Shown here one piece after another: positions 51,583-59,295 of a DNA stretch of 64,000 bases. The position numbers and the translations under genes were made by a program. Location: NCBI GenBank assembly GCA_024998565.1, contig JACOEM010000003.1, positions 186,001-250,000 of the forward strand, given 5' to 3'. Below the pieces are notes generated by a model. That model was not told the DNA's origin. It was given only the letters and a program-made list of their open reading frames with translations, and made no database searches. Numbering within the stretch: the first letter of the stretch is position 1; each line of letters opens with the position of its first letter. The DNA is from Nitrospira sp. GTDB taxonomy: Bacteria; Nitrospirota; Nitrospiria; Nitrospirales; Nitrospiraceae.

Positions 51583-52443
51583 ATGCCGCGATCGCTCTGG
51601 AAAGGATCCATCAGTTTTGGGCTCGTCAATATTCCTGTTGTGCTCTATTCGGCCGAAAACCGGAACAGCTTTGATTTGACGCTCCTCGACCGTCGCGACA
51701 TGAAACCGGTCGGATTCAAGCGCTACAACAAGGAGTCGGGCAAGGAGGTGGCGTGGGACCAGATCGTAAAAAGATACGAATATGAGAAGGACCGTTACGT
51801 CGTACTGACGGACGAAGACTTTCGACGTGCGAATGTCGAAGCGACACAGACCATCGATATTCTGAATTTTGTGCGGGCCGAAGAAATCCCGCCTACCTCA
51901 TTCGAAACCCCGTACTACCTGGCGCCGGATAAACGGGGAGAAAAAGGCTATGCGCTCTTGCGCGAAACCTTGAGCAAGACAGGGAAAGTTGCCGTTGCCA
52001 CGGTTGTGATCAGGACGCGGCAATATATCGCCGCGCTGATTCCCTGGAGTGAAATGATGGTGTTGAACACGCTGCGCTATGCCAACGAACTCCGGCCGAC
52101 CAAGGATCTCGGGATTCCCGCGAAAAGTTTAAAGACGACCGGAGTGACCTCCCGGGAGTTGGAGATGGCCACGAAGTTGGTAGAGGAAATGTCGGAGCGT
52201 TGGAAGCCGGCCCAATACAAGGACACCTACCATGAGGATCTCATGCGATTGATCCACAAGCGGATCAAGGCAGGAAAAACCGAAGTCGTGACGGTACCTG
52301 AAGAAGGTGAGGCCCAAAATCAGCCGGGTCGCGCCAAGGTCGTAGATTTAATGGCTCTCCTCAAGCGAAGTGTGCAGCGCTCCGTGAAACCGAAGCCACC
52401 GTCGCGGGGTAGTGAGCGGCATGTCAGCCGCAAGACGGCATGA
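51583..52443 (+). CDS. ku: DNA end-joining protein Ku
   Basis: A 286-residue bacterial Ku: LWKGSISFGLVNIPV at the N-terminus, GKEVAWDQIVKRYEYEKDRYVVLTDEDF and a Lys-rich C-terminal tail. Ku binds double-strand DNA ends and recruits LigD for non-homologous end joining. AAGGTG precedes the ATG. It is the first confidently assigned gene of a unit with treZ, a GH133 enzyme and ligD. Confidence 0.96.
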   Translation: MPRSLWKGSISFGLVNIPVVLYSAENRNSFDLTLLDRRDMKPVGFKRYNKESGKEVAWDQIVKRYEYEKDRYVVLTDEDFRRANVEATQTIDILNFVRAEEIPPTSFETPYYLAPDKRGEKGYALLRETLSKTGKVAVATVVIRTRQYIAALIPWSEMMVLNTLRYANELRPTKDLGIPAKSLKTTGVTSRELEMATKLVEEMSERWKPAQYKDTYHEDLMRLIHKRIKAGKTEVVTVPEEGEAQNQPGRAKVVDLMALLKRSVQRSVKPKPPSRGSERHVSRKTA

Positions 52444-56492: not shown

Positions 56493-56537
56493 ACGAATCG
56501 ATTCTTGTACCGGATCGACTCAGGGGAGAGGAGCTGC

Positions 56538-59147
56538 GTGGGTCTTCAGCAATATTGGAACAAGCGAAACTTCAAGAAGACGCCGGAGCCTCGGGGTAAA
56601 AATGCCGAGCCGGAAGGTCGGCTGCAGTTCGTCATCCAGAAGCATGCCGCAACCAGGCTGCACTATGACTTTCGCCTCGAATTGAACGGCACCCTGAAAA
56701 GTTGGGCCGTCCCCAAGGGGCCCAGTCTGGATCCGGCGCAAAAGCGCCTGGCTGTGCATGTGGAAGATCACCCTCTGGAATATGGACAATTCGAGGGGAT
56801 TATCCCTGCCAAGCAGTATGGTGGTGGCACGGTGTTGCTCTGGGATCGCGGCTACTGGGAACCGATCGGGGACCCCGCTTCGGGCTACCGTCGTGGACGG
56901 CTCAAGTTCACCTTGCATGGAGAAAAATTGCACGGTCTCTGGAATCTGGTGCGCATGGGTGGTCGGCACGAAGAAGGCAAGGGGAATTGGCTCCTCATCA
57001 AAGAGGATGATGAAGAAGCCCAGCGCGGAAAACAGGGAGAAATTACGCAGACCCTTGAAGAGAGTGTGGTGAGCGGAAAAACTCTGGCGGAGGTTGCCGC
57101 CGGAGAACATACAGTCCGGCTATCGAAGCAACCATCGCGGAAAAAACCCCCGGCTGCCTCCGGGCAGCGTTCTATCAAGAGAACTCCTGCTCCGGGAGCT
57201 CGAAAAGCCTCGCTAGAGCGATGGATGGCTCCGCAGCTGGCGACCCTGGTCCCAACTTCTCCTGAGGGGCCTGATTGGGTCCATGAACTCAAGTATGACG
57301 GCTATCGAATGCTCTGTCGGGTAAAAGACCGCACCGCAACCTTGCTGACCAGGAACGGCCATGACTGGACTGCGAAGCTCCCTCACATCGCCGCGGCGGC
57401 GGCAGGGCTTCCGGCCAAGACGGCCTGGCTCGACGGTGAAGTGGTCGCCTTGCTGCCGAACGGGCGAATCAGCTTTCAACGTTTGCAGAACGCATTCGAT
57501 GCGCAAATCGACCATGAGCTGATCTATTTCGTGTTCGATTTGCTCTATCTTGACGGGTACGACTTTCGAGCGTCGTCTTTGCTCGACCGGAAGCGTCTCC
57601 TGTCAGTCCTGGTGCAGGACAGCCATCCGTCAACGCTGATTCGCTATAGCGACCACATCGCCGGGCGGGGCGAGGCGGCCTTTGCCGCGGCCTGTCGACG
57701 CGGCATGGAAGGCCTGATTGCCAAACGCGCCGCCGCCTCTTACGTGGCAGGGCGGAATCGCAATTGGGTCAAGGTGAAATGTGGACGGCGGCAGGAATTT
57801 GTCATCGGCGGATTCACCGACCCCTCCGGCTCTCGAAGCGCGTTCGGTGCCTTGCTGCTCGGTGTGTACGATGAGCAGGGCCGGCTGCGGTATGCCGGAC
57901 GAACCGGAACCGGATTTTCCGACCGCTCCCTCAAGTCGCTCCATGCGCGGTTGAAACGATTGCGACAACCGAACTCACCCTTTATGAATCCACCGGGCGG
58001 GAGCCAGGCGGCCGGCGTGCATTGGGTGAAGCCGACGCTGGTCGCTGAGGTCGCATTCGCCGAGTGGACCAACGACGGTCGATTGAGACAGGCCTCCTTC
58101 CAAGGCTTGCGAGAGGACAAAGACGCTCGTTCCGTCCTCGTCGAACATACATCGGAGAGCGCTTCAAGTGAGAGGTCCGGACAACCGAACGGTTCCACGA
58201 AGGGACTTGGACGAAAAAGCCGCGCCGTGCAAGGGGATTCAGAACGAGCTGCTGCTGAAGCGACCATGGTCGGGGGAGTCACCCTGAGTCATCCGGATCG
58301 CGTGCTGTTTCCGGAGCAAGCCGTCACCAAACTGGAACTCGCCAGGTATTACGAGACGGTCGGCGAATGGATCCTTCCGCATGTGAAGGACCGACCTCTG
58401 ACCCTTCTGCGCTGCCCTGAGGGATATCAAAAAGAATGTTTTTATCAGAAACACGCGAACGATCAGATGCCCGCTGTCATCGGATGAGTGGAGGTGCCCG
58501 AAGATCACGGGACGGCCTATTATATGGCCGCTCACACGCTCGACGCGTTGCTCGCGCTGGTGCAGATGGGTGTCCTGGAAATCCACACCTGGGGAGCGAA
58601 GCAGGATAAATTGGATCGTCCCGACCGGATGATTCTCGACCTGGATCCGGGCCCCGCTGTGGACTGGTCGTCCGTCATTGAAGGGGCTCAACTGCTCCGT
58701 ACGTTGTTGCGCGAATTGAATCTGACGTCCTTCGTCAAGACCACGGGCGGGAAAGGTCTGCATGTCGTTGTGCCGTTGCAGCGCGTGCACACCTGGGATG
58801 AGGTCAAGACGTTCTCGAAATCTCTCGCGGAACATCTCGAACGCCTGATTCCCGAACGGTTCGTGGCCACCATGTCGAAGGCCAGGCGCAAGGGAAAGAT
58901 CTATGTCGATTACCTGCGCAATGCGCAGGGTGCAACGGCCGTTGCCGCGTTTTCTACGCGCGCCAGGCCGGGCGCTCCGGTGTCAGTTCCGCTGGCATGG
59001 GACGAACTCTCGATCGACCTGCGCTCCGACAGTTTCACGCTCGTCAATCTGCCGGATCGACTCCGCCGACTTCCGAAAGACCCCTGGGCAGAGTACGGTG
59101 CGACGAAACAACGACTCACGAAAGCAATGCGGCATAGACTCGCGTAA
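56538..59147 (+). pseudogene. ligD: Multidomain DNA ligase LigD, interrupted by an in-frame TGA
   Basis: Reading frame 1 (56538-58487) encodes the 3'-phosphoesterase domain (HYDFRLELNGTLKSWAVPKGPS), the ATP-dependent ligase domain with catalytic lysine in HELKYDGYR, and the first 70 residues of the polymerase domain (GVTLSHPDRVLFPEQ). A TGA at 58485-58487 stops it. The same frame continues without interruption from 58488 to 59147 with the rest of the polymerase, including the catalytic MILDLDPGP. The break lies inside a domain. It may be a nonsense mutation (for example CGA or TGG to TGA), a read error or readthrough; a GTG directly after the stop might allow restart. The GTG start at 56538 has GAGGAG five bases upstream. 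Confidence 0.85.
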
Positions 59148-59185
59148 GGCATGAGCCTGGTGGCCAGGGTGCTTTCAACAGAGAC

Positions 59186-59230
59186 CTGGGGGGAGTGCTA
59201 GTGGAGTGATTCAGGGCGGGCTGATATTGG
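59186..59230 (+). promoter_or_regulatory. CTAG-type operator plus -10, driving the zinc-ribbon gene
   Basis: CTGGGGGGAGTGCTAG (59186-59201) is followed after 23 nt by TATTGG (59225-59230). The start codon is 66 bp further on. Confidence 0.5.
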
Positions 59231-59295
59231 TGAGCATGACAAACGGTGGGAGGGGCCGCCTATCCCACTAGTGCTCACAACGAAAGGAGAGCCGC

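Follow-up and report, generated by a model that had tools for sequence, protein, structure and literature searches.

The ligD gene of this Nitrospira genome, which runs in the order PE-LIG-POL from a GTG at 56538 to a TAA at 59147, is split by a single in-frame TGA codon at 58485–58487, inside the polymerase (POL) domain. On balance, we consider it fairly probable that a recent nonsense mutation has removed the polymerase and left a phosphoesterase-ligase (PE-LIG) protein that works with Ku. Positions are those of the window, the whole stretch of 64,000 nucleotides that was analysed, and the ligD features and the Ku gene described below all lie on its forward strand.

The premature stop codon and the two parts of ligD

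When the TGA is taken as a residue, 56538–59147 forms a single frame of 869 residues containing no other stop, and it aligns to its relatives without a gap at the stop, in agreement with the initial annotation, which had described the frame as open on both sides. The GTG start coincides with the ATG of the two nearest relatives and is served by a strong Shine-Dalgarno match (energy −8.3). The read-through product has the full PE-LIG-POL order and a PRK05972 score of 1129.7 bits, above the cut-off of 895. There is no homopolymer at the TGA, and the assembly comprises 4.13 Mb in 19 contigs at 99.99% completeness.

The stop lies 69 codons past the start of the POL domain, after position 52 of the 254 in the POL profile. 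The truncated upstream ORF (56538–58487) encodes 649 residues, in which Pfam matches were found to LigD_N (148 bits), DNA_ligase_A_M (93.5), DNA_ligase_A_C (115) and positions 1–52 of LigD_Prim-Pol; the phosphoesterase and ligase domains are both whole. By Pfam and NCBIfam, this product thus retains what defines a LigD in the broad sense, an ATP-dependent ligase domain accompanied by PE and/or POL, but it is without the complete POL domain that a three-domain LigD carries on the same chain. The orphaned 3' part (58488–59147) covers POL profile positions 59–254 of 254, lacking the N-terminal quarter of the domain, and closes at the TAA at 59145–59147; the retained DLD motif and the normal end reported earlier for this part were both found.

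Alignment to solved POL structures was used to assign functional residues to the two pieces, in Mycobacterium tuberculosis (Mtb) numbering with a three-residue offset for the crystallised chain that was assumed on the basis of this analysis. The segment stranded on the upstream product (58278–58484, alignment to 2IRU) holds the positions aligned with Lys16 and Lys26, which form the 5'-phosphate pocket of Mtb POL, and with the base-stacking pair Phe64 and Lys66 (PMC8656161). Motif I (DLD; Asp137/139), motif II (TGGKGLH; Ser172 and His178) and motif III (VDYLR; Asp227) all lie after the stop. As judged from this distribution, neither piece alone would qualify as a complete polymerase. A single POL domain was found in the genome, with no second LigD or POL domain elsewhere. 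When the read-through POL domain was modelled from its single sequence, the result was uninformative (pLDDT 41.6). That both pieces are made, and that PE-LIG-POL(N) and POL(C) assemble into a working, naturally split LigD polymerase, is very unlikely.

Comparison with relatives

The closest LigD matches in named records are from Nitrospira, and the two nearest relatives (84% and 83% identity over residues 1–868) have neither a stop nor a gap at the TGA. All 16 full-length LigD homologues that were aligned are open across the site and carry arginine at the TGA position. The gene studied here differs at just two of the 283 columns that are invariant in these 16 homologues, the stop itself being one of the two, so that no other decay is visible in ligD. 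With a stop that is absent from the orthologues, a frame that is otherwise open and a truncated product, the gene shows these features of a pseudogene formed by nonsense mutation. The phylum-wide comparison of POL homologues covered 295 genomes and gave no further full-length match with a mid-domain stop; none of the full-length POL homologues in the 48 other genomes with a POL match had one, and the only other stops occurred in two short, weak matches.

Against the nearest relative, dN/dS was 0.18 before the stop and 0.15 after it (about the 80th and 76th percentiles of 200 contig genes), placing both halves of ligD inside the range of those genes. Relaxed selection after the stop was considered and set aside, the values for both halves being normal and the lineage-specific changes too few to tell. 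The dN/dS of ligD gives no positive sign of relaxation, and this is counted against a recent mutation as the explanation.

The two parts of the gene also differ in dS (0.58 before the stop vs 0.26 after). From about 58611 to 59235, identity to the two nearest relatives is mostly 91–99%, vs near 80% in the flanks, and this tract is probably a homologous-recombination tract ending within ligD. Recombination was rejected as the cause of the stop: the tract begins about 125 bases past the TGA, which lies outside it, and mosaic identity is common on the contig. Since per-kb identity on this contig lies anywhere between about 0.80 and 0.98, the 3' tract of ligD is not unusual here.

A sequence error as the alternative

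The principal alternative is that the TGA arose as an error in the consensus or the assembly and that the organism possesses an ordinary full-length LigD. To place the stop against a background rate of broken genes, the whole 322-kb contig was set against the corresponding 381 kb of one relative and its ORFs were passed through a coding filter, which gave 227 conserved coding ORFs and 85,266 aligned codons; the disruption rate is that of this one contig. The ligD TGA was the sole convincing mid-gene nonsense codon in the set, the remaining flagged stops lying, on our reading, near start codons or in ORFs that are small or doubtful. Beyond the limits of the window, the gene for an MFS transporter (G000:C3:83396-84702, L085), 97% identical to its G019 relative, has a one-base frameshift near C3:84133.

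With one mid-gene nonsense codon and one frameshifted gene on the contig, the assembly is mostly clean; this, together with the lack of a homopolymer at the site, speaks against an error. The stop is more than a chance occurrence, as the 16 homologues are open there and it is unique among the 227 ORFs. An error is nevertheless favoured by the single base that separates the present frame from an open one, by the normal constraint on both halves and by the isolated frameshift in a well-conserved gene of the same contig, which fits a low error rate. The frameshift, as a second unexplained break, is likewise counted against a recent mutation. Taken together, a sequence error is possible, though we regard it as less likely than a real mutation.

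Reinitiation and readthrough

It had also been proposed that a GTG immediately after the stop could allow reinitiation and so give a separate polymerase. In such an arrangement, termination at the TGA would be followed by a new start at GTG 58488 or at the in-frame ATG 58524, producing a small polymerase and hence a split LigD. The GTG does adjoin the stop, motifs I–III are retained in the downstream ORF, and POL proteins encoded separately are found elsewhere in the phylum. However, the same GTG is an ordinary valine codon in several intact relatives (e.g., L003, L004 and L006), and its Shine-Dalgarno energy of −2.6 is at background (median −3.0), on which ground reinitiation at 58488 was rejected. 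ATG 58524 scores −6.5, close to the 10% quantile of −6.6 and thus about in the best tenth of random sites, and the ATG that overlaps the TGA belongs to another frame. A split LigD would require a downstream ORF with a complete POL domain and its own ribosome site, but here POL begins at profile position 59 and the fragment is without the part bearing the phosphate pocket and Phe64/Lys66, a region that the stand-alone POL homologues possess. The proposal of a separate polymerase was accordingly not upheld, and we regard reinitiation as very unlikely.

Readthrough of the TGA into a full-length LigD, by selenocysteine insertion, a suppressor tRNA or a programmed event, is likewise very unlikely. 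In its favour, the downstream frame is conserved (dN/dS 0.15), but no SelB above cut-off and no tRNA-Sec reaching the gathering score were found, RF2 is present, and the RNA 3' of the stop is no stabler than its shuffles (z 0.33). A selenoprotein or programmed recoding is identified by SelB, tRNA-Sec and an RNA structure 3' of the TGA, and on these results all three forms of readthrough were rejected. The homologues, moreover, carry Arg and not Cys at the site, and the conserved genes of the contig contain no other in-frame TGA mid-gene. TGA is the commonest stop, terminating 94 of 200 conserved genes, and an alternative genetic code was rejected on this ground. Jointly, readthrough and a reinitiated polymerase remain improbable. 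The initial annotation had left recent loss and bypass of the codon side by side; recent loss is favoured by the single stop, the lack of other decay and the normal dN/dS of 0.18 and 0.15, while bypass finds no backing in the machinery, RF2, TGA usage or RNA structure.

Ku and the fate of NHEJ in the genus

The NHEJ partner of LigD is present in the genome: an intact Ku gene (51583–52443; PF02735, 156.9 bits) lies 4 kb upstream of ligD. Within the genus, 17 of the 29 genomes searched have both Ku (strong matches) and LigD, a count that takes in two fragmented assemblies with LigD split between contigs, and the module is absent from the other 12. G016 retains traces of LigD sequence and G022 a trace of Ku, which suggests that the genes were lost by decay. 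Given that Ku and LigD are found in only 17 of 29 genomes and that these remnants exist, NHEJ loss is frequent in the genus.

The ligD gene starts 45 bases (56493–56537) past a glycogen-debranching gene. The two nearest relatives, like several others, have two further genes, about 1.8 kb together, immediately before ligD that are missing here; on our own reading of the sequences, one is for an outer-membrane-type protein and the other for an Slp-like lipoprotein. A stand-alone PE-domain protein of about 180–240 aa is encoded in some relatives (L058, L059, L060 and L027); none was found in this genome.

Discussion

Under the favoured explanation, a recent nonsense mutation, a single base change would have created the stop codon in the chromosomal ligD. 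Translation would then end at 58487 and yield the 649-residue PE-LIG protein, which would remain able to trim 3' ends and to seal the breaks that Ku holds, with the gap-filling activity of POL lost. The DNA past the stop would be an untranslated remnant, too young to have decayed. We infer for this sequence of events a genuine base at the stop, a truncated protein both stable and active, and no synthesis of the downstream fragment.

The gene can be set beside three known arrangements. The PE-LIG-POL LigD of the Pseudomonas aeruginosa type (PRK05972, TIGR02776) has the same three domains in the same order, and the gene described here exceeds the family cut-off when read through; unlike that type, it has a nonsense codon inside POL, and each piece covers the family model only partly. 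Some LigD proteins, for example that of Bacillus subtilis, which has no PE (PMC8656161), likewise have fewer than three domains, but here POL is lost through a point stop inside the domain, with the remnant still adjoining. Stand-alone LigD-type POL proteins elsewhere in the phylum also have POL encoded apart from LIG; these proteins, however, are about 310–360 aa and span almost all of the domain, N-terminal part included, whereas the present fragment lacks roughly the first quarter.

The stop looks like an ordinary gene-damaging mutation or a sequence error and reveals no new mechanism. If the base is real, NHEJ in this strain would trim and seal ends without gap filling, as a natural counterpart of a LigD without POL; for the evolution of end joining in bacteria this would be a minor point.
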